This document shows, piece by piece, positions 8,601 through 41,600 of a stretch of 64,000 bases of DNA. A program made the position numbers and the translations under genes. Within the stretch, counting starts at the first letter, position 1. Each line of letters opens with the position of its first letter. The notes beneath the pieces were generated by a model. The model ran no database searches. It worked only from the letters and a program-made list of their open reading frames with translations, and was not told the DNA's origin. Where the stretch lies: NCBI RefSeq assembly GCF_003095655.1, contig NZ_CP029151.1, positions 267,501 to 331,500 of the forward strand, in the 5' to 3' direction. This stretch comes from Dokdonia sp. Dokd-P16. GTDB taxonomy: Bacteria > Bacteroidota > Bacteroidia > Flavobacteriales > Flavobacteriaceae.

Positions 8601-11600
8601 TTGACTCTGGTAATAATCCAATATCATTCCCTACGAGCTATACAAATCAAACCGTAAATAATGAGTCTATATTTGTAACCGTTACTACTTCAAATGGCTG
8701 TATTCGTCAGGGACAAATTAATCTTGAGGTTGACACCTCTGAGATACCTGATACGTTTCTATTAGAATATTTTGAATGCGACACGGACAATGATGGTGAA
8801 GCAATTTTTGATTTTTCGGACGCGACGGCACAAATTCTAGCGCTTTTTCCTGTAGGGCAAATGCTTACTGTCAGTTATTATGAAACACAGCAAGAAGCAG
8901 AGACTGAAATTAATTCACTTAATAGTATCATAAATTCTTATACTAATAACCTAAATCTCACTGATAATAATGGTAACCAAAATATTTGGGTACGCGTAGA
9001 TGGTGACACTGCAAATGACTGTCGCGGTCTAGGCATACATATACAACTCACAGTCACTCCCAACCCAACATTCCTACCTACAATCAGTAATATTGAAACC
9101 TGTTCTGCTGTAGCAAATGCAGCTTCTTTTGATTTAACGCAGAATACAGCAGAGATAACTGCTGGAGATACAGATCTAGAAGTTACATTTTATGAGAGCA
9201 TAGCGGCTTACTCGGCAACACCTCCTGTGGCGATTGGAAATCCTACTTCTTTTTCAAATAGTAGTAACCCGCAGACTATTTTCTATAGTCTAAGAAGCAT
9301 AAGCAGCACGTGTACGACCTTTGATACTGCAATGAATTTTGAGATTATTGTGAATCAAAATCCTGTGGCTATTACGCCATTAGAACTTCAAGTGTGTGAT
9401 GATGACGGTGTAGCAGATGGATTTACCACGGTTGATCTTTCTCAAAAAGATGCCGAAATTACCAGTGGTTTTAATGCAAATCTCACGGTAACCTATCACT
9501 TGGACGCTGCTGGCGCTGCTACTGGTGATGCAAGTATTCCAGATAGCACGATGTTTACCACCACAAGCAATCCTCAGATTGTAGAAGTCCGCGTAACTGA
9601 TAATACAACAGCTTGTTTTTCAACGACGAGTATGAGTATCCGTAGTTTCCCAGTGCCTGTGGCTGTCACTCCAGCCGACTATGAGGCTTGTGATGATGAT
9701 AATGATGGTGTGTTTGACTTTTTTGTACTCTCTTCTAGAGATGCTGAAATCACTGGTGGAGACCCTAGTTTGAGTGTTGCTTATTACCTCACTCAGGCAG
9801 ATGCAGATAATGCGCCTGTAGGTCAAGAACTGGACGCAGCAATGTATATCAATAACGATCCTTTTGAGCAAATAGTTTTTGCTCGTGTATTTAATGCGAT
9901 AGGTTGTTATGACACGACACCACTTACCCTGAGAGTACTTAATACTCCGATGCCTAATGAAAATGCAACTCCTTTTACGCTTTGTGATGATAATAGCGAC
10001 GGACTACAGATTTTTGATTTAAGTACCCAAGTAGTAAATATTTTAGGAAGTTTAGACCCTGCTACCCACAGTGTAGAGTGGTTTTCTTCTCTCGCTTCCG
10101 CGGAAAATGGAACGCCTGCCATCGCAGCTTCTACCGCTTACACCAGCAACACGGCGACTGTTTTTGCAGTAGTAACAGATACGGCGCAACCAACGACCAC
10201 GGCTACTTTTTGTAGTAATATAGCGACCCTTTCCCTTATTGTGAATCCGCTTCCTACTCCAGTGCAACCTGCCGAGTATGAGCTTTGTGATGATCTAGAG
10301 AGCGGTAGTGATACCGATGAGTTTGCAAGTTTTGATTTGCGTAGCCGTGATGATGAGATTACTGGCGGTAATGATGACTGGGCAGTGAGCTATCACCTTA
10401 CCCAAGGCGATGCTGATGCAGGTGTGCCAGCACTTCCTGATGTATATCAAAACACGGTAATGGCTAACCAAACCATCTTTGCTAGAGTTGAGAATATTGT
10501 AACTAGTTGTTTTGAAACTATCACGCTCACCCTAGTAGTAAACCCATTACCATCACCTACCACGATTACAGCGGTAGAAGAATGTGATACCATGGCAAAT
10601 GATGGTGATACAGATAATGATGGAGATGCAGTATTTGATCTTACAGGCCAAGTAACTACAGATATTATTAATGGAGAGACTTTTATGTCACTCACTTTTC
10701 ACGAAACACTCGCTTCCGCGGAACTGGGAAGTCCATCGATAGCAACACCGGCGGCTTATGAAACAGCATCTAGAACAATATATGTACGAGCAACCGATAC
10801 GGACCCGGCAACAGCAACCCAGTGTTACCGTGTCATCGAACTAGTACTTACCGTACAACCAGCACCTGTACTTCCTACAGTAATCCCAGATTTAACTTCT
10901 TGCGATGATAATGTAGATGGACAAGCGCTTTTTGATCTTACTCAAAATGATCCAATTGTTCTAGGAACACAAACCACTGCTGATGTTACCCTCACATATC
11001 ATGAAACGCTGGCTAGCGCAGAGGCGATGGTAGGAAGCGCAAGTGATATGCCAGTTGCAGATCCGCTGAACTATTTAGCAAGTGCACCAACCACGCCAAT
11101 CTGGGTGCGTCTAGAAAATACAACTACAGGATGTACGGTCGTTGGTACTTTCAATTTAAACATAGCGATGATTCCAGCAATCACACCTCCTGGTGTTTTT
11201 GAAGAGTGTGATAGCGCAGGAGCACTGGTAGGCACCGATAGTGATGGGATTACAAGTTTTGATTTAACGAGCCTTGATAGCTTAATCACTGGAGGAGACA
11301 CCACTTTAAGTGTTAGCTATTATGAATCACAAGCCGACTTAGATGCTGGAGCAACTAATGCGATAATGACCCCAACAGCCTATATAAATACAGGCATGAG
11401 TCCGCAGACTATTTTTATTTTAGTTACAAGTGATCAGGCAGGAATGTGTGGTGCTCAAACTACGGTAGACCTTCAGGTGAATCCGCTGCCAGTCATTGGA
11501 GAGCCATTACCAGCAGCAATTGCTTGTGATGAAGATAATGATGGCTTTGGAGCTTTTGACTTGCAGCAATATAATGACGACTTACTAGCAACAGTAACGG

Positions 11601-14179
11601 ATATAGACTTACGTTTTTATGAAACACTAGATAATGCAACGGCAGATACAGGAGCAGGTCAGATAGATATTACGGTTCCTTATAATAACATTTCAGGGAT
11701 GACTTCGCTGTATGTAGTTGCACAAGATACGGATGCTACCACAGCCACAAGTTGTACGAAGATTTATGAGTTTGAGCTTATTGTATTTCCTATTCCTGAG
11801 CTTCCAGCAACACTAGCAACTCTTGCAGCGTGTGATGATAATAATGATTTAATGGAGGTTATTGACCTTACTCAAAATGAGGCTGCGATTATAGGAACGC
11901 AAGATCCAGCAACCCTTGTTATTACTTACCATAATACACAAGCAGATGCCGATTTAGGAATCAATGCGATTGTAAATCCAACCGCTTATTCAGCAACGCA
12001 GATAACACCTCTTGAGATTATCTGGATACGTTTGCAAGTAAGTGACGGCTCTCCAAATATATGTGCTGCCATTGGCTCTTTTGAGATATCGGTAGAGACA
12101 CCACCTACGGCAAACCCGAATGGTGATGAGCTAGACCTGATGATTTGTGATGATGATACAGATACTTTTACCGTATTTGACTTAAGCGTAAACCAAGCCA
12201 GTCTCACTGGTGGTGATCCGCTGCTTACGGTAGTGTATTATGAAAGTATTGCTGCATTAAACGCAGGAACTCCTATTACAGATCCTTCGGCGTACACAAA
12301 TGTTTTAAATCCTCAAACCATCCAGGCAGTAGTATCAAGCCCAGCAGGGTGTAGTGATGGAACGACCTTTAATATTGAAGTATTACCACTGCCAACGCCA
12401 AATACCAATCCAGATGCGCTAGAAGTGTGTGATACGACCACAGATATTGATACCGATGGTGACGGAGTGATTGATGCAGATTCAGGTTCGGCAACAGATG
12501 GTTTTGAAATCTTTGATTTAACACCTGCTATCGCGCAGATTGCGGGAGCAGAACCGGTGAATATAACGGTGTATACAGAACTCGCTTTCGCGGAAGCGAA
12601 CCCAGAAGACACCACGCTAGCCATTGCAGATGTGACTGCGTTTATCAATACCGTGACTGGCAACCAAACATTATACGCAAGAGTAGAACGTGATGTGCCA
12701 GGAGACAGCGACTTGGATAGCGACGGAAATCTATGTTTTGTAGTCGTTCCTTTTGAAGTAGTGGTAAATCCGCTACCGATCTTAGCTGAAGCTGGACCGG
12801 TAGATTATACCTTCTGTGAAGAATTTGATGGTGATGACTCGATGGGAAGTGTAGATCTTACGACCCTCGCAGATTTGGCTGGATTACTTGCTGCGCCGCA
12901 GGTAACCAGTGATTTTATTATCACTTACCATGAACTAGAGGTGCAAGCGGCAGCAAATGCAGCAGCCCTTAGCTCGCCATACACGGTGGCAGATAATCAA
13001 GAATTATTTGTGCGTATAGAAAATGCGATCACGGGATGCGTGAATTTTACCAGCATCATCTTTACGGTAGAGTCACGCCCAGAGGTATTTCCAGCTGATA
13101 ATATCGTGCAATGTGCAGACGATTTTGGAGTAAATATCGCGCCAGAGCAGAGCACAGCAACTTTTGATCTTACTCAGCAAAACGCTGTCATCACTGGAAA
13201 CGTAGCCGCAACTTCCGTGAGTTATTACACCAGCCTTGCAGATGCCCAGGCGATGACAAATGCGATTGCTACGCCTAGTGCTTTTGAAAACACCATAAAT
13301 CCGCAGGTGATTTATGCTAGAGCGGTAAACACTGCAAGTGGCTGTGAGAGTAGCACGGTAGTAGATTTTGAGATATTTGTACAACCGTTACCATACACCA
13401 ATTTAACTAATGAAGGCGGACAGATTTGTGTAGATGAGATTACAGGCGAAGCGCTTAATCCATTTACCATTGATGGTACGGTGGAGAGTCCGCAGATTGG
13501 GGTTACTTATAGTTATGCTTGGACACGTGATGGTGCATTAGTATCCTTAAACCCTGAGGTGACCATCGATGCTGCAGGGACGTATCAAGTGATGATTACC
13601 GCTACTTATGGAGATGGTACAAGCTGCGACTATGTAGCAGAAGCGGTGTATAGCGCAGAGAGTGCTCCCGTTTTTGAAGCGGTCGTTGTAGAATCTTCTT
13701 TTAATAATAGCGGATTATACACAGTAGAAGTCATTAATATTACTGGAGCAGATGCAGCTTCAATATATGAGTTTGCGATAGATGACGGACCTTTCCAGAG
13801 CAGTACAACTTTTACAGGAGTAACACCGGGAACACACACTGTTTTTGGAAGACTGGCGAGTGGTAACTGTAGTATTTCAGAAGTAGAGATAGGGATAATT
13901 GACTACCCACGATTCTTTACACCAAACGCAGATGGTTTCCACGACACATGGAATATTATAGGACTGGGAGTGGCACCAAACTTAAATGCAAAGATCTTCA
14001 TCTTTGATAGATACGGAAAACTATTAAAACAAATCAGCCCAGTAGGTGCTGGATGGGACGGTACATTTAATGGACAACCTATGCCATCAAGTGATTACTG
14101 GTTCCGCGTAGAGTTTACAGAAGTAGATGAGGAAGGAACACAAAGAACCGTAAACGGACACTTTACGTTGAAGAGATAA
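5669..14179 (+). CDS. Giant modular T9SS type B cargo protein 1
   Basis: 2836 residues. A signal peptide at about 1-21 ends in SLSAQ. Residues of about 22-480 resemble the IgGFc-binding-protein N-terminal domain (G-S-T-H-Y-I-P-P). About 20 modules of 80-100 residues follow. Each has a Cys with an acidic loop (CDDDNDGxxxFDL type), a V-x-Y-Y/H centre, a Q-T-I-F-A-R-V-like strand and a second Cys. A PKD/Ig-like segment comes next, then a type B gliding-motility C-terminal domain at about 2746-2836 (FTPNADG...WNI...FDRYGK...WDG...DYWF). The family logic is export by the T9SS to the cell surface as an adhesin or recognition protein; the acidic loops suggest calcium binding. From residue 1132 to the end it is nearly identical to giant protein 2. 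Specific function unknown. Confidence 0.9.
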   Translation: MQIKNYALLVLFLFSFISLSAQLGSTHYIPPLHSRVGVSNATIYLSTPNGDATTPINVTISSGDGTLLSTHQIWSGATAFYEINVFNNSPILVDNTELNTAIQGKGIIIEADDLIYSSLRTFVTNHAGYLTAKGEDALGQRFRLGSARLLETNGSHSFFTSVMATEDNTTISFSDYDTANMIFENGLNPSTVLNAGETFVVSGYSGTIANSEGFIGALLESDKPIIVNSGNLNGNFYQGQYANLFSDMLIDQIVDESSTGFEYMLIRGGGNDSSEVPLIIANQDNTDIYVNGNLVGTIANAGDFIYLDNPSYYLPDTNVQHRNMYVTTNDPSKTIYVYQMLAGRSGTNDDPLAGNGNNFPSATPGMNFIPPLSCFFQNTVDLIPAVREIYPGNFENFTGDILITSRVGNTVTVNGNTLDISTALANPGTPDWETYYVSGLNGDAQIIADGPIAAGLFGGFQSAGFAGYYSGFSVTPEDTTTDICTQAGPIDLLERFNGNPPPGGVWTPPLDSSTNIFDPITDPVSNPSLIYNYSAIGDCDPIDIDITITLIDNPSLDPIDDIDACESYILTDPSTLSGNFLNAPQYFSGLQSDMTTTVIDWTVPITTTTTIFVYDENFGDPDLCPEEFSFTVTISDEAVANLVPTIRICDDITNDGIAIFDLETLTETTILGTQNETSFSITWHTTEQQAIDNVLSFSNPSAFETSSTTVYARIENNFSNSCFDTIAIPLFVDAQPTANAVPTQNICDDLSDDGVEIIDLTDLSSIVLVSQDASVFNIDYYPTNADATAEVNIIANPTAFSVNGTDTITARIYNSDNNLCAQFTDITVNIIPQATAVHPGDYTICDNSIDGSDTNGFVNFDFLTLNSVILDGQNPSVFNVSYHANLNDATSNSNPLPSTFYNTDAGGQSITARVSNNQNDSCFAMTTFDIVVAPLPVITTPVLLSQCDTDTDGFALFNLTEAESLLSPNWQNETFTYFDSGNNPISFPTSYTNQTVNNESIFVTVTTSNGCIRQGQINLEVDTSEIPDTFLLEYFECDTDNDGEAIFDFSDATAQILALFPVGQMLTVSYYETQQEAETEINSLNSIINSYTNNLNLTDNNGNQNIWVRVDGDTANDCRGLGIHIQLTVTPNPTFLPTISNIETCSAVANAASFDLTQNTAEITAGDTDLEVTFYESIAAYSATPPVAIGNPTSFSNSSNPQTIFYSLRSISSTCTTFDTAMNFEIIVNQNPVAITPLELQVCDDDGVADGFTTVDLSQKDAEITSGFNANLTVTYHLDAAGAATGDASIPDSTMFTTTSNPQIVEVRVTDNTTACFSTTSMSIRSFPVPVAVTPADYEACDDDNDGVFDFFVLSSRDAEITGGDPSLSVAYYLTQADADNAPVGQELDAAMYINNDPFEQIVFARVFNAIGCYDTTPLTLRVLNTPMPNENATPFTLCDDNSDGLQIFDLSTQVVNILGSLDPATHSVEWFSSLASAENGTPAIAASTAYTSNTATVFAVVTDTAQPTTTATFCSNIATLSLIVNPLPTPVQPAEYELCDDLESGSDTDEFASFDLRSRDDEITGGNDDWAVSYHLTQGDADAGVPALPDVYQNTVMANQTIFARVENIVTSCFETITLTLVVNPLPSPTTITAVEECDTMANDGDTDNDGDAVFDLTGQVTTDIINGETFMSLTFHETLASAELGSPSIATPAAYETASRTIYVRATDTDPATATQCYRVIELVLTVQPAPVLPTVIPDLTSCDDNVDGQALFDLTQNDPIVLGTQTTADVTLTYHETLASAEAMVGSASDMPVADPLNYLASAPTTPIWVRLENTTTGCTVVGTFNLNIAMIPAITPPGVFEECDSAGALVGTDSDGITSFDLTSLDSLITGGDTTLSVSYYESQADLDAGATNAIMTPTAYINTGMSPQTIFILVTSDQAGMCGAQTTVDLQVNPLPVIGEPLPAAIACDEDNDGFGAFDLQQYNDDLLATVTDIDLRFYETLDNATADTGAGQIDITVPYNNISGMTSLYVVAQDTDATTATSCTKIYEFELIVFPIPELPATLATLAACDDNNDLMEVIDLTQNEAAIIGTQDPATLVITYHNTQADADLGINAIVNPTAYSATQITPLEIIWIRLQVSDGSPNICAAIGSFEISVETPPTANPNGDELDLMICDDDTDTFTVFDLSVNQASLTGGDPLLTVVYYESIAALNAGTPITDPSAYTNVLNPQTIQAVVSSPAGCSDGTTFNIEVLPLPTPNTNPDALEVCDTTTDIDTDGDGVIDADSGSATDGFEIFDLTPAIAQIAGAEPVNITVYTELAFAEANPEDTTLAIADVTAFINTVTGNQTLYARVERDVPGDSDLDSDGNLCFVVVPFEVVVNPLPILAEAGPVDYTFCEEFDGDDSMGSVDLTTLADLAGLLAAPQVTSDFIITYHELEVQAAANAAALSSPYTVADNQELFVRIENAITGCVNFTSIIFTVESRPEVFPADNIVQCADDFGVNIAPEQSTATFDLTQQNAVITGNVAATSVSYYTSLADAQAMTNAIATPSAFENTINPQVIYARAVNTASGCESSTVVDFEIFVQPLPYTNLTNEGGQICVDEITGEALNPFTIDGTVESPQIGVTYSYAWTRDGALVSLNPEVTIDAAGTYQVMITATYGDGTSCDYVAEAVYSAESAPVFEAVVVESSFNNSGLYTVEVINITGADAASIYEFAIDDGPFQSSTTFTGVTPGTHTVFGRLASGNCSISEVEIGIIDYPRFFTPNADGFHDTWNIIGLGVAPNLNAKIFIFDRYGKLLKQISPVGAGWDGTFNGQPMPSSDYWFRVEFTEVDEEGTQRTVNGHFTLKR
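12583..12598. repeat. Palindromic repeat inside giant gene 1
   Basis: CGCTTTCGCGGAAGCG, one mismatch, read as LAFAEA in a module. The matching site in giant gene 2 is at 37207. More decayed copies of type CTCGCTTCCGCGGAA occur in this gene near 10090 and 10710. Confidence 0.75.
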
Positions 14180-14201
14180 GGAAAGCATACATTGATTACA
14201 G

Positions 14202-14236
14202 AAGCCCTCAGTATGTGTTACTGGGGGCTTTTTTGT
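14202..14236 (+). terminator. Giant gene 1 terminator
   Basis: Inverted repeat AAGCCCTCAGTA / TACTGGGGGCTT (one G-T pair) followed by TTTTTTGT. The same terminator follows giant gene 2 and belongs to the 5.2-kb inverted repeat. Confidence 0.88.
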
Positions 14237-14252
14237 TGTTTTCGCGAAAGCG
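14237..14252. repeat. Palindromic repeat at edge of inverted repeat
   Basis: TGTTTTCGCGAAAGCG, two mismatches. It starts at the first base after the large inverted repeat loses identity. Confidence 0.7.
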
Positions 14253-14340
14253 AGATTGCACAACTTATTATAAAACTTTTGAAGTAGCTTTAAAACACTT
14301 TCATCGAAATTCCGTTACTTTGAGTGTAATAATAAAATTT

Positions 14341-15024
14341 ATGTCTACACCCGTTCTTGAACTCTCACACGCTGCTATATATCAGCGAGAAAATTTAATT
14401 TTATCTGAAGTTAATGTTACCATTGAACCAGGTGACTTTGTGTATCTTATAGGTAAAACGGGTTCTGGAAAAAGTAGTTTCATGAAAACGCTTTATGGTG
14501 ATTTACCGCTCACAGAGGGAAAAGGGAATATTGTAGGGTTTGATCTCAATGGACTTAAGGAAAAGAATATCCCATTTTTACGCCGTAAGCTAGGTGTTGT
14601 TTTTCAGGATTTTAAATTATTAAATGACCGAACCGTTATCGAGAATTTAAAATTTGTTTTAAAAGCAACTGGATGGAAGGATAAGGCTGCTATGACAAGT
14701 AAAATAGATTCGGTTCTTGATAAAGTGGGGATGAAAAGCAAAGGATTTAAGTTCCCTTATCAGCTTTCTGGTGGAGAACAACAACGTATTGCTATTGCAC
14801 GCGCTTTACTCAATGATCCCGAGCTTATCCTTGCAGATGAACCTACTGGAAATCTTGACCCGCAAACCAGTGTTGAAGTCATGGAAGTGCTTCAAGAGAT
14901 TAATAAGAATGGGAACACTATACTAATGGCAACTCACGATTATGCGCTCTTATTAAAATACCCATCTAAAACACTGAAGTGCGATGGTAATAAGGTTTTT
15001 GAGGTTGTACAGAAAACAGTTTAA
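14341..15024 (+). CDS. ftsE: FtsE-like ABC transporter ATPase
   Basis: 227 residues from the ATG at 14341. The longer in-frame extension to 14215 covers a terminator and a palindrome, so it is rejected. Walker A is GKTGSGKSS at about 38-46, the ABC signature LSGGEQQR starts near 142, Walker B is [12 protein letters not shown] around 161-172, and the switch His is His199. In the FtsEX complex this ATPase sits on the cytoplasmic face and couples ATP hydrolysis to activation of peptidoglycan hydrolases at division. No ftsX lies next to it, which is common in Bacteroidota. It follows giant gene 1 and is transcribed separately from it. Confidence 0.9.
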
Positions 15025-15182
15025 AATCTTTTCTGAGCATATATATTATCCAATTCATCAATAAATTGGTGTTTGATTGATAATGAAGTCTTCCTCATAT
15101 AAATTAATGAGTGAGACTTCATATAGATTTTGGCTAGTAAAATGCCTAAAACTTCTATTTAGCGTATATTGACATTACTTTA

Positions 15183-16061
15183 ATGCTTTCTATACTTATC
15201 CCTACATATAATACTGATATCACAGATCTTGTCCAGTCTATCTGTGAGCAAGCACATCGTGCGAGGATTACTTTTGAATTGATTTTCTGTGAAGATGCAT
15301 CTTATTTACAAACAGAAAAAAACGTACAACTTCTAGGAAACACTAACGTAAAACGGCTAATAAACGCTACCAATTTAGGTAGAACTGCCACCCGTTCTAA
15401 ACTTGCCGATAATGCAACATATAGTTGGCTACTATTTCTAGATGCAGATGTTGCACTACCTTCAATAAATTTTATTGAAAATTATGTTTCTCATCTCAAA
15501 TTATCACATGATATTATTCATGGTGGAGTTTCATATTTAAAAAATGGCAACCATAACTCCGCGCTAAGACATAGATACGGTTTACAAAGAGAAGCACAAT
15601 TAGCTAAAGTAAGGTTAAAAAAACCTTACTATATCATTTCTCAAAATATACTTGTAAAAAAGGAAATTTTTTTAAAGCTAAATACAATTGAATCAAATAG
15701 GTATGGTCTTGATAATATATTCTCCTATCAAATTTTTAAACAAGGGTATGATGTCCAACACATAGATAACCCAGTAATACATCAAGGTTTAGAAAAGAAC
15801 GATGTGTTTTTAAAAAAGTCTTCACAAGCGATAGAAACTCTTATTTATTATGAAGAGAATGGTCTAATGGCTCAAGACTTCACACGTTTACAAAAAAGCT
15901 ACCTTACTCTTAAAAAATACAGAGGAGTACTTATTTTTAGGGTTACCATAGGTAAAGGTATCAAGTACATTGAAAAAAACTTAATGAGCAAGAAGCCATC
16001 TCTATTGCTTTTTGACTTGTACAGACTACATCATTATATAACTCTTAAAGAAAATGCCTAA
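15183..16061 (+). CDS. Family 2 glycosyltransferase
   Basis: 292 residues. GT-A fold start MLSILIPTYN, a nucleotide-binding acidic stretch (IFCEDAS), and a D-x-D metal/UDP site at Asp87-Ala-Asp89 (FLDADVAL). It would transfer a sugar from a nucleotide donor to a growing surface glycan on the inner face of the cytoplasmic membrane. No membrane segments seen. It overlaps the next gene by 8 bp, so the two are probably co-translated. Donor and acceptor cannot be told from sequence. Confidence 0.87.
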   Translation: MLSILIPTYNTDITDLVQSICEQAHRARITFELIFCEDASYLQTEKNVQLLGNTNVKRLINATNLGRTATRSKLADNATYSWLLFLDADVALPSINFIENYVSHLKLSHDIIHGGVSYLKNGNHNSALRHRYGLQREAQLAKVRLKKPYYIISQNILVKKEIFLKLNTIESNRYGLDNIFSYQIFKQGYDVQHIDNPVIHQGLEKNDVFLKKSSQAIETLIYYEENGLMAQDFTRLQKSYLTLKKYRGVLIFRVTIGKGIKYIEKNLMSKKPSLLLFDLYRLHHYITLKENA

Positions 16062-16986
16062 GTTCTCGGTAGTCATATCGGTTTATAATAAGGAGGACTT
16101 TATACAGAAGACTGTAGAAAGTGTCTTAAACCAATCGGTGCAAGATTTTGAGATTATTATAGTTAATGATGGTTCAACTGATGATAGTGCTAACATCATC
16201 AAAAATATTGATCAAGCAGCCATAAATTATATCGAATTACCTCAAAATGTAGGTGCTAGTGCAGCTAGAAATATAGGTATTAAATCTGCCAAAGGATCCT
16301 TTATTGCGCTTCTGGATGGAGATGATGTTTGGGAAAACTATTATCTAGCCGAGATTGTAAGTCTCATGCATATGTTTCCTCATCATTACGTTTTCGCGAC
16401 AGCGGTATTCAAAGAATATATAGGAAAAACTACAGCAAGTAACTATAGTTTTGATAATCCAAATGAAGACACTTTTCTAGATCTAAACTACTTTGAGAGT
16501 AGCTATAAAAACTCGCTATTAACGAGTAGTTCTGCAGTGATACATAAGTCCGTTTTTCATGATATTGGGTCTTATGATGAGTCCATAAAAAGCGGACAAG
16601 ACACAGATCTATGGATTAGAATAGGAATTAAATATCGAGTAGCTTTCAGTACTAAGCCCGCTGTAACTTATATCTATGCGCCACAAAGTCTTTATAAAAG
16701 TATAAGCAGTGTTACACATAGACCTGATTATCTCAATTATCTTAATGAAGAAGAAGAGCTTGAGAGCTTAAAGAAATTTATAGATCTCAATAGATATTCC
16801 TTAATACTGAGGGCTAGGTTATGGAATGAGCCGCAAAGAGCGACCGTATATCTTGATAATCTTGACCTAAATAGTCTTAATAGTAGACAGCGGTTTCTAA
16901 TTAATTTACCTCCGAGCGTTTTGAAAATAGCGTTTAAATCCCAAGAACTATTAGCACAAGCGGGGATTAATCTATCTGCTTTCTAG
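16054..16986 (+). CDS. Family 2 glycosyltransferase
   Basis: 310 residues. Textbook GT2 N-terminus (SVVISVYNKEDFI, VNDGSTDDS) and acidic DGDD motif at residues 88-91. The N-terminal half is catalytic; the C-terminal part is variable and probably sets the acceptor. Translationally coupled to the upstream GT2 by an 8-bp overlap. Converges with the fdtA-like gene, the two stops overlapping by 4 bp. A decayed palindrome copy (16389-16404) is read as VFATA. Confidence 0.9.
   Translation: MPKFSVVISVYNKEDFIQKTVESVLNQSVQDFEIIIVNDGSTDDSANIIKNIDQAAINYIELPQNVGASAARNIGIKSAKGSFIALLDGDDVWENYYLAEIVSLMHMFPHHYVFATAVFKEYIGKTTASNYSFDNPNEDTFLDLNYFESSYKNSLLTSSSAVIHKSVFHDIGSYDESIKSGQDTDLWIRIGIKYRVAFSTKPAVTYIYAPQSLYKSISSVTHRPDYLNYLNEEEELESLKKFIDLNRYSLILRARLWNEPQRATVYLDNLDLNSLNSRQRFLINLPPSVLKIAFKSQELLAQAGINLSAF
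16389..16404. repeat. Palindromic repeat inside GT2 gene
   Basis: CGTTTTCGCGACAGCG, two mismatches to the consensus. Confidence 0.6.
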
Positions 16987-17363
16987 CCAATAAAATCTTT
17001 ATAATCGCGGATGTAATCTTGCTCATCATATTCATGAGAAGCGAGTACGAGACAAACAGAACCAGATGAGAAATTTTCTAGTTCTCGCCATATACTCACA
17101 TCAATTAACAAGCCTTCACTCGGATTGTTAAGCATAACCCGTTCTTTAGTCGTTCCATTATCGAGCACCACTTCAAAGCTACCGCTTACTGCAATGAGCA
17201 ATTCTACACATTCTTTATGTGCATGACCGCCGCGATAGGCGCCACTAGGTACATCGTGTAAATAATAAACTCGCTTGATATCATGTGGAAACACACCATT
17301 TTCTATAACCGCAAGGTTGCCTCGCGGGTCTGTTATTCTAGGGATTTCTATAATTTTTTTCAT
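16983..17363 (-). CDS. FdtA/QdtA-like sugar 3,4-ketoisomerase
   Basis: 126-residue single cupin of the WxcM-like/FdtA family. These enzymes isomerise dTDP-4-keto-6-deoxyglucose to the 3-keto sugar, the committed step towards dTDP-Fuc3NAc or dTDP-Qui3NAc. Visible motifs: D-P-R-G-N-L near the start, Y-R-G-G-H-A-H-K with the catalytic-type histidines at 47 and 49, and the V-x-L-D-N-G turn. The upstream neighbour on this strand is a GT4 gene with a 4-bp overlap. An FdtB-like aminotransferase is at 21424. Whether the product is the galacto (FdtA) or gluco (QdtA) isomer cannot be read from sequence by eye. Confidence 0.88.
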   Translation of the reverse strand: MKKIIEIPRITDPRGNLAVIENGVFPHDIKRVYYLHDVPSGAYRGGHAHKECVELLIAVSGSFEVVLDNGTTKERVMLNNPSEGLLIDVSIWRELENFSSGSVCLVLASHEYDEQDYIRDYKDFIG

Positions 17364-19604: not shown

Positions 19605-19608
19605 TTCT

Positions 19609-26111: not shown

Positions 26112-26114
26112 CAT

Positions 26115-28825: not shown

Positions 28826-28904
28826 AATTCTTTAATTTCTGCAATGGCGGTATTATCTCCCTACCTTCACTTAGTTTTTAGATGCCCACGTGTTGAGCTT
28901 TTAA

Positions 28905-28920
28905 AATTTTCGCGAAAGCG
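28905..28920. repeat. Palindromic repeat (half-degenerate copy)
   Basis: AATTTTCGCGAAAGCG in the divergent ndk/nrnA-like intergenic region. It is identical in sequence to the copy at 2021-2036. Confidence 0.75.
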
Positions 28921-29060
28921 TAAAAACTCTTTCTTGAAATCGCGTGCAAAAATACTGCTTTTTAATGTTAACACCATATTAAGTTTTCATCTACTTGAAA
29001 AGCTAAATATTTAATCACAAGCAGAAATAGAGCACAGCAGAAATTGTATATTCGCAAACT

Positions 29061-30625: not shown

Positions 30626-30639
30626 ATAAATCACAAACA

Positions 30640-31812: not shown

Positions 31813-31832
31813 TACAAACATTACAGCCTATT

Positions 31833-31867
31833 AAAAAAGCTAGCCATCGTAGATGGCTAGCTTTTTT
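31833..31867. terminator. Bidirectional terminator
   Basis: AAAAAAGCTAGCCATC / GATGGCTAGCTTTTTT, 16-bp arms, 3-nt loop, T/A-runs on both sides. It separates the converging PPIase and pepD genes. Confidence 0.92.
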
Positions 31868-31899
31868 TTTATCTTATACTTTCAAGAAGTAATCAGCTG

Positions 31900-33363
31900 T
31901 TAAGCTACTGGTATATCTTTTAATATTTCTATTACAAAATCCCAGTACTTTTGAGCACTAGAGATGCTTGCTCTTTCATCTGGAGAATGCGCTCCCTTAA
32001 TAGTAGGTCCAAAGGAAATCATATCCATCTCAGGATAATTCTGACCTAAGATACCACATTCAAGTCCTGCGTGACAAGCCGCTACATGTGGATTCTCATT
32101 ATTGATCTCTTTATATTTTGCTTCTAGCACCTTTAAGATAGGACTCGCCATGTTAGGAGCCCATCCTGGATAATCACCAGAAAGTACTACGTCAAAGTTT
32201 GCAAGTTCAAACGTAGCTGTAATAGCATTTGCGAGATCATCCTTTGTGCTATCTACAGATGAGCGTGTAAGACAACCTATTTTTATAGATCCATCTTTTA
32301 CAATCACTCTAGCTATATTATTAGAAGTTTCCACTAGATTTTCTATCTCTGGGCTCATTCTATACACCCCATTATGAGCAGCACTTATCGCTTTAATAAG
32401 CTCTTGTTGAGCTTCCATGTTCATTACATTATCAGGGAGATCTGTTTTCTCTGCGGTAATACTAAGGTTTTCTTCTAGCGAATTGTACTCTACTTGAATA
32501 GCACTTGCCACATCCTGAAAATCTGCTTCAAAAGCTGCCAGTTGATTCTCATCTACTGCAATGATAGCTACGCTTTCTCTTGGGATTGCATTTCTCAAGC
32601 TACCACCATCAATGCTTGAAATACGTATATCAAAATTTTCTGATGCACTGCGCAATAAGCGGTTCATCATTTTATTTGCATTACCAAGTCCCTTAATGAT
32701 ATCCATTCCAGAGTGACCTCCATTAAGTCCATTTACACTAACTTTATAAGCTACAAGACCATCATCTATTCCTTCTTCTGGGTAATTGCGAGTAGCTGTG
32801 ATATCTACACCACCTGCACAACCTACACCTATCTCGTCATCTTCTTCTGTATCTAGATTAAGTAAGATGTCACCTTTAAGAATTCCTCCTTTAAGACCCA
32901 TCGCCCCAGTCATCCCAGTTTCTTCATCTATAGTAAATAAAGCTTCTATAGCTGGATGCTCTATGGTAGTACTTTCAAGTACTGCCATTATTGTCGCCAC
33001 TCCAAGACCGTTATCTGCTCCTAGTGTCGTTCCTTTTGCACGTACCCAGTCACCATCTACATACATCTCGATACCCTGATTGTCAAAATCAAACTCGGTG
33101 TCATTATTTTTCTGATGTACCATGTCAAGATGCGACTGCATCACAATCATTTTCTTGTTCTCATGACCAGCAGTGGCAGGTTTTCTTATGATTACATTAC
33201 CTACTTCGTCTTCTATCGTTTCTAAACCTAAGTTTTTACCAAAGTCTTTCATAAACGCAATGACGCGCTCCTCCTTTTTTGAAGGACGAGGCACAGCATT
33301 AAGATCTGCAAATTTATTCCAGAGCGCCTTTGGGGCTAGATTTCTTATTTCTTGATTATCCAT
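31900..33363 (-). CDS. pepD: Aminoacyl-histidine dipeptidase, M20 family
   Basis: 487 residues, cytoplasmic (no signal). Metallopeptidase M20C motifs: MQSHLDM with His78 and Asp80, bridging Asp117 in TLGADNGLG, general-base Glu pair in TIDEETGMTG near 147, and a late metal His in KGAHSPDER. It hydrolyses Xaa-His and other dipeptides such as carnosine with two zinc ions. It lies 43 bp after pssA on the same strand, so co-transcription is likely. Confidence 0.94.
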   Translation of the reverse strand: MDNQEIRNLAPKALWNKFADLNAVPRPSKKEERVIAFMKDFGKNLGLETIEDEVGNVIIRKPATAGHENKKMIVMQSHLDMVHQKNNDTEFDFDNQGIEMYVDGDWVRAKGTTLGADNGLGVATIMAVLESTTIEHPAIEALFTIDEETGMTGAMGLKGGILKGDILLNLDTEEDDEIGVGCAGGVDITATRNYPEEGIDDGLVAYKVSVNGLNGGHSGMDIIKGLGNANKMMNRLLRSASENFDIRISSIDGGSLRNAIPRESVAIIAVDENQLAAFEADFQDVASAIQVEYNSLEENLSITAEKTDLPDNVMNMEAQQELIKAISAAHNGVYRMSPEIENLVETSNNIARVIVKDGSIKIGCLTRSSVDSTKDDLANAITATFELANFDVVLSGDYPGWAPNMASPILKVLEAKYKEINNENPHVAACHAGLECGILGQNYPEMDMISFGPTIKGAHSPDERASISSAQKYWDFVIEILKDIPVA

Positions 33364-33406
33364 TTTCTATGTTTTACACAAAGATAATGGCTACATATCT
33401 GAAAGA

Positions 33407-34129
33407 CTACGCTTGCTCTTTAAAAACAATAGAAAGAAGGATGTACAGAATGATGATGATAGGTATTCCTAAAAACTGGAAAAACACAAGCAGTAATACG
33501 CTTGCAAGTAAAAAGAGGTAACGCACTTTATTTCCTGCAAAAGACCAGTTTTTAAATTTTAAAGCAAATAATGGAAGTTCTGCATTGAGCATAAAACAAC
33601 TTAATGCGGTAAGTACTATAAGGACGTATGGATTTTCTAATAACGCTTTCGCGAAAGCGTACTCTTCAAACATTAATATAAGAGGTAAGCTTAGTATAAA
33701 CAAGGTATTTGCAGGAGTTGGAAGTCCTATAAACGAGTTAGTCTGGCGGTCATCTACATTAAACTTTGCAAGTCTATATGCCGAAGCCATCGTTATTGCA
33801 AAACCTATGTAACCCAAGTGAAAGTGCTGCTCTTCTAATGCCGCTCCCCAAGGAATACCGCTAGCATCTTCTAGCAGTTGATACATAACTACTCCTGGCA
33901 CAACGCCACTAGTAACCATATCTGCAAGGGAATCTAATTGTAATCCCACCTCACTTGAAGCATTAAGAATTCGTGCAAAAAAGCCGTCAAAAAAATCAAA
34001 GAAAATACCAAGAGCTACAAATATCGCGGCAAGCTCTAGACGATCATTTACAGCAAAAACTACCGCAACACAACCGCTTAACAGATTACCCATTGTGATT
34101 GCATTAGGAACGTAACTCTTTATAGACAT
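33407..34129 (-). CDS. pssA: CDP-diacylglycerol-serine O-phosphatidyltransferase
   Basis: 240 residues, about seven membrane segments. The CDP-alcohol phosphotransferase signature D-x2-D-G-x2-A-R-x8-G-x3-D-x3-D is complete (Asp45, Asp48, Gly49, Ala52, Arg53, Gly62, Asp66, Asp70). It makes phosphatidylserine, the precursor of phosphatidylethanolamine, in the cytoplasmic membrane. A perfect palindrome copy encodes YAFAKA in a loop between helices. Upstream is a 123-bp gap shared with the divergent PorV/PorQ-like gene. Confidence 0.94.
   Translation of the reverse strand: MSIKSYVPNAITMGNLLSGCVAVVFAVNDRLELAAIFVALGIFFDFFDGFFARILNASSEVGLQLDSLADMVTSGVVPGVVMYQLLEDASGIPWGAALEEQHFHLGYIGFAITMASAYRLAKFNVDDRQTNSFIGLPTPANTLFILSLPLILMFEEYAFAKALLENPYVLIVLTALSCFMLNAELPLFALKFKNWSFAGNKVRYLFLLASVLLLVFFQFLGIPIIIILYILLSIVFKEQA
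33644..33659. repeat. Palindromic repeat, perfect copy
   Basis: CGCTTTCGCGAAAGCG inside pssA, read as AFAKA. Confidence 0.95.
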
Positions 34130-34252
34130 TGTTTAATTTTTAGTAAAAGTATGGAAGAATTTTCGACTAATATAGGCTTGTGCAATATCTAGCTCGTTTT
34201 ATTGTTTACAATGTGTACTAAAAGTGGGATATTTGCCCCATAAATCCTGCTA

Positions 34253-35320
34253 TTGAAAAAATCACTATCTATACTATTTCTACTCATTTCAGTTACTGCT
34301 GTGTCACAAACGGTACGTAAATATTCGAATGAATTTTTAAATATTGGTGTAGATGCTGCCGCTCTTGGTATGAGTAATGCCGTTGTTGCAGGTACAAGTG
34401 ATGTAAATGCAGGCTATTGGAATCCTGCAGGTTTAGTCAATCTAGAAGATAATCAGATCTCATTAATGCACGCCTCCTATTTTGCAAATATTGCAAATTA
34501 TGATTACATCGCTTTTGCAAAACCTCTTGATGATAGAAGCGCCATTGGTATTTCTGTAATACGTTTTGGCGTTGATGATATTTTAAATACTACCCAACTC
34601 ATTGACGATCAAGGAAATATAGATTACAATCGTATCAGTCTATTTTCTACAGCAGATTATGCTTTTACGGTCTCGTATGCAAGAGCATTACCGCTAGATG
34701 GTTTGAATCTAGGTGTGAATGCAAAAGTGGTACGTCGTGTGATAGGTGATTTTGCAAACAGCTGGGGTTTTGGCCTTGATGTAGGGTTACAGTGGAAAAA
34801 AGGAGACTGGGATTTTGGAGTTATGGCTCGTGACATCACCACTACAGTAAACGCGTGGAGTATTGACGAAGATGAGTTTGCTACCATAAGCGATGCCGTC
34901 GAAGGTCAAAATCAAGATTTACCAGAAAGTACAGAAATCACCATCCCTAAACTTCAAGTAGGATTCGGTCGCCAGTGGATTTTTCATTACGATTACTCCT
35001 TACGTGCAGAGCTAGATATGAATTTTAGATTTGCTCAAACTAATGATATAATATCATCGTCTGCCGTAAGTGCAACACCTGCCTTAGGGCTTGAGTTTGG
35101 CTATGCAGAACTTGTTTATGTGAGAGCTGGCGTTGGTAATTTCCAAGAATTAACTGCTCTTGATGACTCCACGTCCATAGGTTTTCAACCTAATATAGGT
35201 GTAGGATTCAAGTACAAAGGGATCCATGTGGATTATGCACTTACAGATATAGGTGACCAAAGCGCTGCTATTTATTCTAACGTGTTTTCTGTAAAGTTAG
35301 ATTGGGAGCTTTTTAGATAG
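34253..35320 (+). CDS. PorV/PorQ-like outer-membrane protein
   Basis: 355 residues from a TTG start at 34253 (frame reads MKKSLSILFLLISVTAVSQ, a good signal peptide). The mature part has the D-A-A-A-L-G-M-S-N-A segment and N-P-A-G-L of the PorV/PorQ (UPF0164) beta-barrel family, with alternating hydrophobic strands to the C-terminal aromatic W-E-L-F-R. PorV shuttles T9SS cargo to the attachment complex at the outer membrane; PorQ is also needed for secretion in Porphyromonas. Which of the two this is cannot be decided by eye. It stands next to a giant T9SS cargo gene. Confidence 0.82.
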   Translation: MKKSLSILFLLISVTAVSQTVRKYSNEFLNIGVDAAALGMSNAVVAGTSDVNAGYWNPAGLVNLEDNQISLMHASYFANIANYDYIAFAKPLDDRSAIGISVIRFGVDDILNTTQLIDDQGNIDYNRISLFSTADYAFTVSYARALPLDGLNLGVNAKVVRRVIGDFANSWGFGLDVGLQWKKGDWDFGVMARDITTTVNAWSIDEDEFATISDAVEGQNQDLPESTEITIPKLQVGFGRQWIFHYDYSLRAELDMNFRFAQTNDIISSSAVSATPALGLEFGYAELVYVRAGVGNFQELTALDDSTSIGFQPNIGVGFKYKGIHVDYALTDIGDQSAAIYSNVFSVKLDWELFR

Positions 35321-35337
35321 CTTTTTCCTCTCCCTCA

Positions 35338-35464
35338 GGGCGTGCCCCTATCCTTCTTCCATTTCATTCTTGAAGTCTAGTGACCGGGCTATACGTTCAT
35401 ACGCTTCGTGATGCTCCGCTATCGCTACACAACACTGCAGGGTAACCACTACTATCCCTCACGC
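35338..35464 (-). repeat. Structured intergenic repeat, copy 2
   Basis: About 127 bp, same orientation as copy 1. On the minus strand it starts GCGTGAGGGATAGTAGTGG and passes through GTATAGCCCGGTC to GGGGCACGCCC. An internal imperfect hairpin sits around TAGCGATAGCGG. It fills much of the 305-bp gap between the PorV/PorQ-like gene and giant gene 2. Confidence 0.7.
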
Positions 35465-35571
35465 AAAAAAAAATAGACGGTATCCAAGAATTACATAGAG
35501 CTAAAGCTTGTTTAAACGCTAAGATTGCTTAGCAGATAACTGATTATTTCTATCCTAAATATCAATAGACA

Positions 35572-35604
35572 AAAAAGCCCCCAGTAACACATACTGAGGG
35601 CTTC
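35572..35604 (-). terminator. Giant gene 2 terminator
   Basis: Same hairpin and T-run as after giant gene 1, carried within the inverted repeat. It lies 22 bp past the stop codon. Confidence 0.88.
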
Positions 35605-35625
35605 TGTAATCAATGTATGCTTTCC

Positions 35626-38600
35626 TTATCTCTTCAACGTGAAGTGTCCGTTTACGGTTCTTTGTGTTCCTAGCCCGTCTACTTCTGTAAACTCTACGCG
35701 AAACCAGTAATCACTTGATGGCATAGGTTGTCCATTAAAAGTGCCGTCCCATCCAGCACCTACTGGGCTGATTTGCTTTAAGAGTTTTCCGTATCTATCA
35801 AAGATGAAAATCTTTGCATTTAAGTTTGGTGCCACTCCCAGTCCTATAATATTCCATGTGTCGTGGAAACCATCTGCGTTTGGTGTAAAGAATCTTGGGT
35901 AGTCAATTATCCCTATCTCTACTTCTGATACGCTACAGTTACCACTGGCCAGTCTCCCAAAAACAGTGTGTGTTCCTGGAGTTACTCCTGTAAAGGTAGT
36001 ACTGCTCTGGAAAGGTCCATCATCTATGGCAAACTCATATATTGAAGCTGCATCTGCTCCAGTAATATTAATGACTTCTACTGTGTATAATCCGCTATTA
36101 TTAAAAGAAGATTCTACTACGACCGCTTCAAAAACAGGTGCGCTCTCTGCGCTATACACCGCTTCTGCTACATAATCGCAGCTTGTACCATCTCCATAAG
36201 TAGCGGTAATCATCACTTGATAGGTGCCTGCTGCATCAATGGTCACCTCAGGATTTAGTGACACCAACGCGCCATCACGTGTCCAAGCATAACTATAAGT
36301 CACCCCAATCTGCGGACTCTCCACCGTACCATCAACGGTAAATGGATTAAGCGCTTCGCCTGTAATCTCATCTACACAAATCTGTCCGCCTTCATTAGTT
36401 AAATTGGTGTATGGTAACGGTTGTACAAATATCTCAAAATCTACTACCGTGCTACTCTCACAGCCACTTGCAGTGTTTACCGCTCTAGCATAAATCACCT
36501 GCGGATTCGTTGTGTTTTCAAAAGCACTAGGAGTTGTAATCGCATTTGTCATCGCCTGCGCATCTGCAAGGCTAGTATAATAACTTACGGAAGTAGCGGC
36601 TACGTTTCCAGTGATAACAGCGTTTTGCTGAGTAAGATCAAAAGTTGCCGTACTCTGCTCTGGTGCGATATTTACTCCAAAATCGTCTGCACATTGCACA
36701 ATATTATCCGCTGGGAATACCTCTGGGCGTGACTCTACCGTAAAGATGATGCTGGTAAAATTCACGCATCCCGTGGTCGCATTTTCTATACGCACAAATA
36801 ATTCTTGATTATCTGCCACCGTGTATGGCGAGCTAAGCGCTGCTGCATTTGCTGCCGCTTGCACCTCTAGTTCATGGTAAGTGATAATAAAATCACTGGT
36901 TACCTGCGGCGCAGCAAGTAATCCAGCCAAATCTGCGAGGGTCGTAAGATCTACACTTCCCATCGAGTCATCACCATCAAATTCTTCACAGAAGGTATAA
37001 TCTACCGGTCCAGCTTCAGCTAAGATCGGTAGCGGATTTACCACTACTTCAAAAGGAACGACTACAAAACATAGATTTCCGTCGCTATCGAAGTCACTGT
37101 TTCCTGGCACATCACGTTCTACTCTTGCGTATAATGTTTGGTTGCCAGTCACCGTATTGATAAACGCGGTCACATCTGCAATAGCGAGCGTGGTGTCTTC
37201 TGGGTTCGCTTCCGCGAAAGCGAGCTCTGTATACACCGTTACATTCACCGGTTCTGCTCCCGCAATCTGCGCGATAGCAGCTGTTAAATCAAATACTTCA
37301 AAACCATCTGTTGCCGAACCTGAACCTGCATCAATCACTCCGTCACCATCAGTGTCAATATCTGTGGTAGTATCACACACTTCTAGCGCATTTGGATTGG
37401 TATTTGGCGTTGGCAGTGGTAATACTTCAATATTAAAGGTCGTTCCATCACTACATCCTGCTGGGCTTGATACTACTGCCTGGATGGTCTGAGGATTTAA
37501 AACATTTGTGTACGCCGAAGGATCTGTAATAGGAGTTCCTGCGTTTAATGCAGCAATACTTTCATAATACGTCACCGTAAGCAGCGGATCACCACCAGTG
37601 AGACTCGCTTGGTTTACAGTTAAATCAAACACCGTAAAGGTGTCTGTATCATCATCACAAATCATGAGATCTAGATCGTCACCATTCGGGTTTGCCGTAG
37701 GTGGTGTCTCTACCGATATCTCAAAGGAACCGATGGCTGCACATATATTTGGAGAGCCGTCACTTACTTGCAAGCGTACCCAGATAATCTCAAGAGGTGT
37801 TATCTGTGTTGCTGTATAAGCGGTAGGGTTTACAATCGCATTGATTCCTAAATCAGCATCTGCTTGTGTATTATGGTAAGTAATGACAAGGGTTGCTGGA
37901 TCTTGCGTTCCTATAATCGCAGCCTCATTTTGGGTAAGGTCAATAACCTCCATTAAATCATTGTTATCATCACAAGCAGCAAGGGTTGCTAACGTTGCTG
38001 GAAGCTCAGGAATAGGGAATACAATAAGTTCAAACTCATAGATCTTCGTACAACTTGTAGCTGTGGTAGCATCCGTATCTTGTGCAACTACATACAGCGA
38101 AGTCATCCCTGAAATGTTATTATAAGGAACCGTAATATCTATCTGACCTGCTCCTGTATCTGCCGTTGCATTATCTAAAGTCTCATAAAAACGTAAGTCT
38201 ATATTTGTTACTGTTGCTAGTAAGTCGTCATTATACTGCTGCAAGTCAAAAGCTCCAAAGCCATCATTATCTTCATCACAAGCAACTGCTGCTGGTAAAG
38301 GCTCTCCAATTACTGGCAGCGGATTCACCTGAAGGTCTACCGTAGTTTGAGCACCACACATTCCTGCTTGATCACTCGTGACTAAGATAAAAATAGTCTG
38401 CGGACTTAATCCACTATTCACATAAGCTGTTGGAGTGGTAATAGCACTTGCTAAACCAGCATCTAAGTCTGCTTGTGATTCATAATAGCTAACACTTAAA
38501 GTGATATCTCCTCCAGTGATTAAAGTATCAAGGCTCGTTAAATCAAAACTTGTAATCCCATCAGTATCGGTGCCTACCAGTGCTCCTTCGCTATCACACT

Positions 38601-41600
38601 CCTCAAAAACTCCAGGAGGTGTGATTGCTGGAATCATCGCTATATTTAGATTGAAAGTGCCAACGACCGTACATCCTGTAGTTGTATTTTCTAGACGCAC
38701 CCAGATTGGCGTGGTTGGTGCACTTGCTAAGTAATTCAGCGGATCTGCAACTGGCATATCACTTGCGCTTCCTACCATCGCTTCTACGCTAGCCAGGGTT
38801 TCATGATACGTTAAAGTAACATCAGCAGTAGTTTGTGTTCCTAGAACAATTGCATCATTTTGAGTAAGATTAAAAAGCGCTTGCCCATCTTCATTATCAT
38901 CACAAGAAGTTAAATCTGGGATTACTGCAGGTAACACAGGTGCTGGTTGTACGATAAGTGCTAGTTCGATGACACGGTAACACTGAGTAGCTGTTGCCGG
39001 GTCCGTATCGGTTGCTCGTACATATATTATTCTAGATGCTGTTTCATAAGCCGCCGGTGTTGCTATCGATGGACTTCCCAGTTCCGCGGAAGCGAGTGTC
39101 TCATGAAAAGTGAGTGACATAAACGTCTCTCCATTAATAATATCTGTAGTTACTTGACCTGTTAAATCAAATACCGCATCTCCATCATTATCTGTATCAC
39201 CATCGTTTGCCATGGTATCACATTCTTCTACCGCTGCAATGGTGGTAGGTGATGGTAATGGGTTTACTACTAGGGTGAGCGTGATAGTTTCAAAACAACT
39301 AGTTACGATATTCTCTACTCTAGCAAAGATGGTTTGGTTAGCCATTACAGTGTTTTGATATACATCTGGAAGTGCTGGCGCACCTGCATCGGCATCGCCT
39401 TGGGTAAGGTGATAACTCACTGCCCAGTCATCATTACCGCCAGTAATCTCATCATCACGGCTACGCAAATCAAAACTTGCAAACTCATCGGTATCACTAC
39501 CGCTCTCTAGATCATCACAAAGCTCATACTCGGCAGGTTGCACTGGAGTAGGAAGCGGATTTACAACAAGAGAAAGTGGCGCTATATTACTACAAAAAGT
39601 AACCGTGGTCGTTGGTTGTGCCGTATCTGTTACCACTGCAAAAACGGTTGCCGTGTTGCTGGTGTACGCGGTAGGAGCTGCGATAGCAGGCGTTCCATTT
39701 TCCGCGGAAGCGAGAGAAGAAAACCACTCCACGCTGTGAGTTGCAGGGTCTAAACTTCCTAAAATATTTACTACCTGTGTACTTAAATCAAAAATCTGTA
39801 GTCCGTCGCTATTATCATCACAAATCGTAAAAGGAGTTGGGTTTTCATTAGGCATCGGAGTATTAAGTACTCTTAAGGTAAATGGTGTTGTGTCATAACA
39901 ACCTATCGCATTAAATACACGAGCAAAAACTATTTGCTCAAAAGGGTCGTTGTTGATATACATTGCTGCGTCGAGTTCTTGACCTACAGGCGCATTATCT
40001 GCATCTGCTTGGGTGAGATAGTAAGCAACACTTAAACTAGTGTCGCCACCAGTAATTTCGGTATCTCTAGAAGAGAGTACAAAAAAGTCAAACACACCAT
40101 CATTATCATCATCACAAGCCTCATAGTCGGCTGGAGTGACAGCCACAGGCACTGGGAAGCTACGAATGCTCATACTCGTCGTTGAAAAGCAACCTGTTGT
40201 ATTATCAGTTACGCGTACTTCTACAATCTGAGGATTGCTTGTGGTAGTAAACATCGTGCTATCTGGAATACTTGCATCGCCAGTAATAGCGCCAGCAGCA
40301 TCCAAGTGATAGGTCACTGTAAGATTTGCATTAAAACCACTGGTGATTTCGGCGTCTTTTTGAGAAAGATCAACCGTTGTAAATCCATCTACTACACCGT
40401 CATCATCACACACTTGAAGTTCTGATGGCGTAATAGCCACAGGATTCTGATTTACGATAATCTCAAAATTCATTGCAGTATCAAAGGTCGTACACGTGCT
40501 GCTCGTACTTCTTAAGCTATAAAAAATAGTCTGCGGGTTACTACTATTTGAAAAAGATGCAGGACTTGCAATCGCCACAGGAGGCGTAGCCGTATAAGCT
40601 GCAATGCTCTCATAAAAAGTAACTTCTAAATCTGCGTCTCCACCAGTGATCTCCGCTACATGCTGCGTTAAATCAAAAGTAGCAGCATTGACTACAGCAG
40701 AACAAGTTTCAATACTACTGATGCTTGGTAGGAATGTTGGATTGGGGTTTACTGTGAGTCTCACATGCTCACCAAGACCTACACATCCATTATCTGTATC
40801 TGCCTCTACACGAACCCAAATATCTTGAACACCACCAGCATTAGTAAATAAAGGATTGTTGCTATAAGCAGCAATATCGATAATAGGATTAATCTCAGAT
40901 AAGGCTTCTTGTTCTGTCTCGTAATAAGCCACAGATACTACTTGTGGTGAGAAAAATGTTTCTATCGTAGCGGTAGCTCCAGAGAAATCAAATACAGCAA
41001 TACCATCACTATCGGTATCACACTCAATCTCATCTACAAAGAGTGTTCCTGTTGGAATTTGAGAAGCACTCACAATCACGTTAATAACGCCTTCTCGTGA
41101 ACATCCATCTAGATTTGTAACTGTTACAGCAATAGCTTCTGTAAAAGGAGAACCACTATTAACATAAGCCGTTGGATCAGTTATAGGTGAACCAGAAGCG
41201 TCTACATAAGTAAACGTCTCGTTAGCCGAATTTGTACTCAACTCGCTCTGTGACTGCGTTAAGTTTAAAGTTGTAACACCATTTGTATCATCATCACACT
41301 GACGTAAAATTACTGGTGTGGTAAGGACTGGAAGGGCATTTACTCTAAGATTAACAGGTGTTATTGAGAAACAACCAGTAAATGCAGTGTTTTCAACTCT
41401 TGCAAAAATAGTATCATTATTAGGGCTCGACGTATTTGTATATGCTGCAGGAAGTGGATTTGCATTACTAGATGCTTCCGGTCCGTTTACATGATAACTC
41501 ACTTCAAACTGCACTGGATCTAAGCCATTTAAAACTTCGTCATCTAATGTAGAAAGATTGAAGGTAGCCACCCCATTGGTATCATCGCCATCTATATTAT

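Follow-up and report, generated by a model that had tools for sequence, protein, structure and literature searches.

What keeps the 3' parts of giant surface-protein genes alike when their 5' parts are only distantly related, and do such copies, when inverted, reorder the chromosome that carries them? This question is raised by a 64,000-nucleotide stretch (hereafter the window) of the chromosome of Dokdonia sp. Dokd-P16 (genome G000, one contig of 3,623,447 bp). Comparison of the window with itself by BLAST gives a single long inverted pair, 5,191 bp with 94.16% identity, 303 mismatches and no gaps, whose copies form the 3' parts of two convergent open reading frames (ORFs), gene A (5669-14179; 2,836 aa) and gene B (35626-42771; 2,381 aa). 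The final 1,705 residues of the two proteins, here called the trunk, are 96% identical, and the remaining N-terminal parts, the heads, are distant relatives with 34% identity across 632 aligned residues. An earlier note on this DNA had described just such an inverted 3' block in two convergent giant genes of the type IX secretion system (T9SS) with distant heads, which the BLAST comparison and the head identity bear out, and its estimate of about 96% protein identity over the last 1705 codons agrees with our measurement; its block of 5175 bp is real but falls short of the actual repeat by 16 bp at the 5' end, and its term "near-identical" suits the proteins but not the DNA, in which about one base in 17 differs and the longest identical run is 251 bp. 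A third copy of the trunk lies ~0.6 Mb from this pair (G000:C1:3286001-3291175) within a 2,495-aa gene C, the homology of which with B exceeds the trunk (~6.0 kb, window 35335-41331). All three proteins carry the T9SS type B sorting domain TIGR04131 at the C-terminus, each above cut-off, and in A and B the same region is also matched as CHU_C; by this domain they are T9SS type B cargo, with secretion to the surface predicted. We propose, with a probability of about 0.8, that the three genes represent an old family whose trunks are homogenised by conversion, that crossover between the A and B trunks has inverted the DNA between them, and that this DNA was exchanged in a relative, G008.

The three loci were compared in the one-contig genomes G000, G006 (a related genome, 3,389,993 bp) and G016 (3,293,944 bp), with the copies denoted A0, B0 and C0, A6, B6 and C6, and A16, B16 and C16, respectively. 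Heads of the same locus resemble each other across the genomes at A and B (Table 1) and at C (48-88%), against 32-52% for heads of different loci. Trunk DNA follows the genome: identity is 93.4-94.3% within G000, 95.5-96.2% within G006 and 98.3-99.8% within G016, against 92.3-93.1% between G000 and G006 and 75.0-75.6% to G016. In trees of the nine proteins, for which the program warned of long branches, the A heads form one group and the B heads another (100/100 each), and the trunks form groups by genome for G016 (100/100) and G006 (100/99). Odd-one-out sites among the copies are clustered: in G000 they fall into 206 runs, where 302 would be expected, and in G006 into 119, where the expectation is 207; none of 5,000 shuffles was as low in either genome. 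Given that the copies are mosaic and that C is distant, conversion acts between loci more than 0.5 Mb apart on the circular chromosome; it also extended into a head, because the 99.8% identity of A16 and C16 covers the trunk and a further 406 bp of head. From these comparisons of sequence, homogenisation of the trunks by gene conversion within genomes, as the earlier note had suggested, can be taken as good as shown, and A, B and C appear as an old three-gene family under concerted evolution, with a margin that is clear in G016 and G006 and small in G000.

It is very improbable that the likeness arose without conversion, by recent duplication of the trunk in each lineage or by strong selection on the protein. 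The trunk is under purifying selection, as judged from single-difference codons between A0 and B0 (202 synonymous, 46 non-synonymous), which would fit the latter possibility, but protein constraint cannot yield such identity at synonymous sites. Independent duplications would need to have involved the same three loci, and these loci retain conserved upstream flanks in three genomes, yet the trunks are up to 99.8% identical within G016 and ~75% identical to those of G000. A recent duplication, the other option in the earlier note, was rejected on the ground that three loci with conserved upstream flanks are common to the three one-contig genomes.

Whether the inverted pair has also recombined by crossing over can be judged from G006, in which both the left (A) and the right (B) flank align in minus orientation and the middle (281.7-303 kb of the G000 chromosome) in plus orientation. 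The two genomes were compared in excerpts that begin 3,900 bp upstream of the trunk start (position 0) and extend 1,200 bp beyond the trunk coding end. The homology of A0 with A6 runs from the excerpt start to 5172, i.e., to the repeat end, as does that of B0 with B6, and the homologies of A0 with B6 (from -16) and of B0 with A6 (from -84) both reach the far end of the excerpt. Because the same-locus homologies stop at the repeat end and the cross-locus ones continue, the heads have retained their upstream flanks and the downstream flanks have been swapped. Within the trunk, the diagnostic sites before window position 9241 are all head-linked (79, with 0 tail-linked), there are none between 9241 and 10035, where both G006 copies are identical over ~800 columns, and from 10035 to 14176 the tail-linked sites prevail (27, with 11 head-linked; binomial P 0.014); between 14000 and 14260, which overlaps the end of the latter stretch, there are 13 tail-linked and 0 head-linked sites. 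Later conversion would be expected to leave such a majority rather than a clean signal in the middle of the trunk. Because conversion erased most diagnostic sites, the crossover is placed only broadly: single switch points at window 10186 and 10877 fit best, nearly equalled by others. Compared as assemblies, G000 and G006 thus show an inversion with its junctions inside the repeats, subject to a real, though moderate, probability that G006 is misassembled. The flanks and diagnostic sites match the prediction of the earlier note that a crossover would invert the segment, keep both frames intact and exchange the 3' parts.

The inverted order could, however, be an error of assembly, in which case gene conversion would be real and no inversion would be known. 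We consider this unlikely, given that G006 is one contig and that differences between its A and B trunks at 194 of 5,130 columns make most of the trunk distinguishable; it would fit with G006 being the sole genome with the inverted order and with the identical run common to A6 and B6. The order in the window itself is backed by reads exceeding the repeat in length, since the PacBio reads of the Dokd-P16 assembly have an N50 of 15,235 bp (PMC13151707, in the passages covered, which also give the read set, SRR33419195, as public). The covered passages of a comparison of strains PRO95 and 4H-3-7-5 (PMC3587595) do not mention an inversion.

The comparison of gene order among relatives, likewise put forward in the earlier note, gives the window's order in five of the six genomes with an informative junction (G000 counted), with G006 alone having the middle inverted. 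In G008 (3,305,093 bp) gene A is missing, its two flanks being 25 bp apart, only a remnant of B is left, and the middle stands in the window's order without the repeat pair. The window's order is also found at the B side in G016, where gene A is relocated, and in G014 (L050), and at the A side in the metagenome-assembled genome (MAG) G012 (L046). Since G008, which lacks the repeat pair, and these three partial cases keep the window's order, that of G006 is probably the derived state. The examined stretches of G010, G011, G013, G014 (contig 7) and G017 gave left-flank matches only, with no head-to-flank link; the contigs of G003 end within the trunk, and G004 has an A-side remnant alone within the 80 kb examined.

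These orders bear on a further possibility, namely, that the segment is an active reversible switch that flips often in the population and changes which giant gene faces which end of the polysaccharide segment. The presence of both orders among relatives, and the fact that each crossover keeps both giant frames open, would be in line with such a switch, but the same order in five of the six genomes, the A/B identity of only 94% in G000, and a terminator-like hairpin inside the repeat (14200-14232; consensus match only) make it improbable. Furthermore, no recombinase was found among the Pfam matches of the 20 middle-segment proteins, nor among those of eight scanned window proteins outside it (the rest of the window was unscanned). 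Homologous recombination needs no dedicated recombinase.

In G008, the bracketed segment appears to have changed in another way. Identity of this genome to G000 and to G016 was profiled in 400-bp bins. Over the right flank (2158.0-2166.0 kb), identity is 87-95% with G000 against 65-84% with G016; in the final kilobase before the B remnant, that with G000 drops to 74-83%. Two tracts, 2168.8-2172.4 and 2175.6-2187.2 kb, are 90-99% identical to G016 and 64-91% to G000, and the intervening sequence (2172.4-2175.6 kb) is of the native type once more (83-95% to G000, 68-84% to G016). In converted coordinates, the G016-like tracts correspond to about 32.0-35.6 and 14.3-28.8 kb of the window, and their outer ends lie at the B trunk remnant and at the position where gene A is missing, respectively. 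For the larger part of the bracketed segment of G008, including the O-antigen-type genes, import from a distant G016-like lineage is probable, and we infer that the trunks guided this import.

The mechanism we propose starts from three giant T9SS surface genes of old origin that differ in their N-terminal heads and have in common a C-terminal trunk of 1,705 residues, which gene conversion, presumably by RecA-type homologous recombination, keeps alike in each genome. With A and B inverted and 21 kb apart, a crossover between their trunks flips the middle and swaps the 3' ends with both frames intact, and, judging from the two assemblies, this has happened at least once between the lineage of the window and G006. 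In G008, horizontal exchange has also replaced the larger part of this middle, as the identity pattern indicates, possibly guided by the trunks.

Several observations weigh against this proposal. The trunk DNAs of G000 are only ~1% closer among themselves than to G006, and in the protein tree the three G000 trunks stand beside G006 without resolution. The C heads do not form one group, the C16 head joining A; this head is not clearly placed by identity either, and its locus is set by the upstream flank. As to the inversion, it is found in a single genome, which is possibly misassembled, the ~800-bp identical run of A6 and B6 being located where an assembler could switch; the 11 head-linked sites against 27 persist in the middle of the trunk; no crossover was detected at locus C between the excerpts of G000 and G006, where the homology of C0 and C6 is continuous on both sides; and in G000, where the copies are 94% identical and no identical run exceeds 251 bp, crossovers may be infrequent.

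Within the known systems considered here, the nearest precedent is a 1.9-Mb inversion in Flavobacterium psychrophilum, a member of the same family, where inverted repeats with a predicted adhesin gene flank the inversion, which was confirmed by optical mapping and may recur according to its authors. In F. psychrophilum, the inversion includes the terminus and the repeat is 10 kb long, with three genes (adhesin, PorP/SprF and outer membrane protein), whereas the Dokdonia repeat, which exists in a third copy and brackets 21 kb, corresponds to the 3' part of genes whose heads differ; homogenised trunks are not described in the passages covered. In Porphyromonas gingivalis, the adhesin domains of the gingipain and hagA genes are identical repeats in T9SS surface proteins that break assemblies, and gene conversion has been proposed as a source of surface variation (PMC5266723). 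The likeness is that T9SS surface proteins of one genome have common repeat sequences; however, domains are shuffled and exchanged in P. gingivalis, and in Dokdonia homogenisation covers the whole 1,705-residue trunk beneath differing heads, and a segment is inverted. The enterobacterial Rhs genes, which are large, with a conserved core and variable ends, were once named rearrangement hot spots, a role in chromosome rearrangement that has been discounted (PMC2935791). They vary at the C-terminal tip, in contrast to the N-terminal head in Dokdonia, and no Rhs family, and thus no Rhs repeat core, is among the Pfam and NCBIfam matches of A and B. In Staphylococcus aureus, a chromosome flip-flop (Cui et al. 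2012, as cited in PMC5808330) is reported as a large inversion between inverted repeats that accompanies a phenotype switch. There a phenotype was linked to the inversion, whereas none is known for that of Dokdonia. The S-layer (sap) genes of Campylobacter fetus are surface-protein genes with conserved and variable parts that undergo RecA-dependent inversion. In sap, the 5' part is conserved and the promoter moves; in Dokdonia, it is the 3' part that is common, with no known promoter switch.

A model of the first 600 trunk residues (mean predicted local distance difference test, pLDDT, 90.9; predicted template modelling score, pTM, 0.53) consists of tandem beta-rich modules, and on this basis the trunk is likely to form an extended stalk at the surface that bears different heads; CD..DG-type motifs are repeated at intervals of about 98 residues in portions of the heads and trunk. 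The best Foldseek match of this model is the grappling-hook protein GhpA of Aureispira sp. CCB-QB (9fly and others; E 7.7e-18), a lead to a stalk-like fold only, given 14% identity, a template modelling score (TM-score) of 0.34, no profile sequence match, and cadherins and titin as the next matches; a predatory role of the trunk proteins is only a thought. Sequence searches against solved structures gave nothing at E 0.1 for the trunk and head A, nothing at E 1 for the trunk profile, and one weak match (E 0.074) for head B, which also has a weak PKD match slightly under the Pfam cut-off. The head of gene C contains a choice-of-anchor L domain. A model of head A was set aside (mean pLDDT 37.8).

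Beyond Dokdonia, contigs wholly within the trunk match account for 14 of the 79 loci (in a collection without contigs under 3 kb), a pattern that the collapse of multiple copies by short-read assemblers would produce. One contig of this type, from Winogradskyella ludwigii (L056), ends in 77 bp that are repeated without change in two further contigs; this suggests a fork between trunk copies, provided that the repeated stretches lie at contig ends. A search with the L056 trunk gave some match in 144 of 149 genomes of the family, many of them short. From these, eight genomes of other genera were hand-picked, each with two or more long matches, and all eight hold near-identical trunk blocks within the genome, the most similar of each measuring 2.9-5.4 kb at 96.1-99.7% and weaker pairs going down to 94.8% (G173, G144) and 83.3% (G143). 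Outside the trunks, few matches were found among those of at least 300 bp (300-460 bp at 70-80%). Inverted pairs are present in G182, G173, G083 and G144 and only direct ones in G102, G112 and G128; the copies of G143 are on separate contigs. We found no description of homogenised trunks in flavobacterial T9SS genes in a literature search with poor coverage of subscription journals. It is a tentative thought, possible but rather doubtful, that Flavobacteriaceae widely keep exchangeable heads on a genome-wide homogenised trunk, so that the trunks act as homology arms that invert, swap or import heads, chromosome segments and surface-polysaccharide genes and thereby diversify the surface. The finding joins giant T9SS proteins, concerted evolution and repeat-driven chromosome change, which are usually studied apart, and shared trunks would help to account for the breakage of giant genes in draft assemblies. 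It may also offer a testable route by which marine flavobacteria remodel both protein and polysaccharide surfaces, for example, under pressure from phages or grazers.

Table 1. The inverted trunk pair, its heads and the bracketed segment in the window.
Feature	Position	Strand	Evidence
Head of gene A, unique 5' part	5669..9045	+	ORF; A-locus heads 62-95% identical across G000/G006/G016, 32-44% to other-locus heads
Trunk copy A: final 1,705 codons, stop and terminator-like hairpin	9046..14236	+	Inverted repeat of 5,191 bp, 94.16%; TIGR04131; hairpin
Bracketed segment, inverted in G006	14237..35568		Plus in G006 with both flanks minus; Pfam matches of 20 proteins
Trunk copy B: final 1,705 codons, stop and 3' flank	35569..40759	-	Inverted repeat; longer homology with C
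Head of gene B	40760..42771	-	ORF; B-locus heads 70-89% identical across G000/G006/G016, 32-52% to other-locus heads; weak PKD

By Pfam matches of its 20 proteins, the bracketed segment encodes an ABC (ATP-binding cassette) ATPase (ftsE-like), an O-antigen-type cluster (15183-26081), TypA, nucleoside diphosphate kinase, DHH, FKBP and cyclophilin proteins, an M20 peptidase, a CDP-alcohol phosphatidyltransferase and a PorV-like protein. A stretch of ~2.5 kb in G000 (window ~23580-26110) with a possible O-antigen polymerase (Wzy_C below the Pfam cut-off) and a glycosyltransferase is absent from the corresponding site of both G006 and the MAG locus L046.

In G016, the DNA that follows the relocated A gene is found at 2.02 Mb in G000, and the DNA beyond the far end of the middle segment at 2.75 Mb. 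The block upstream of A16 and a site near the old left flank in G016 both match the first bases of the window, which bear a 16S rRNA gene, and an rRNA operon may be one end of this move; no tRNA was found beside the relocated gene. In the window, the 16S rRNA gene (1-1373, minus strand, cut by the window edge) represents a second repeat class near gene A. A dispersed 80-bp element beside the relocated gene has a copy in the window that is a Flavo-1 RNA (43818-43899, barely over the Rfam gathering score), and like elements of 70-90 bp occur at many sites of the genome.

Downstream of gene C (G000:C1 3279634-3283834, L140) there are two tandem stretches of ~2.1 kb, ~82% alike as judged from shifted G006 matches. 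Just upstream of gene C (L004 14419-16179) a further T9SS CHU_C protein of 586 aa with a weak fibronectin type III match is encoded, and its gene adjoins a gyrase/topoisomerase IV A-type gene.

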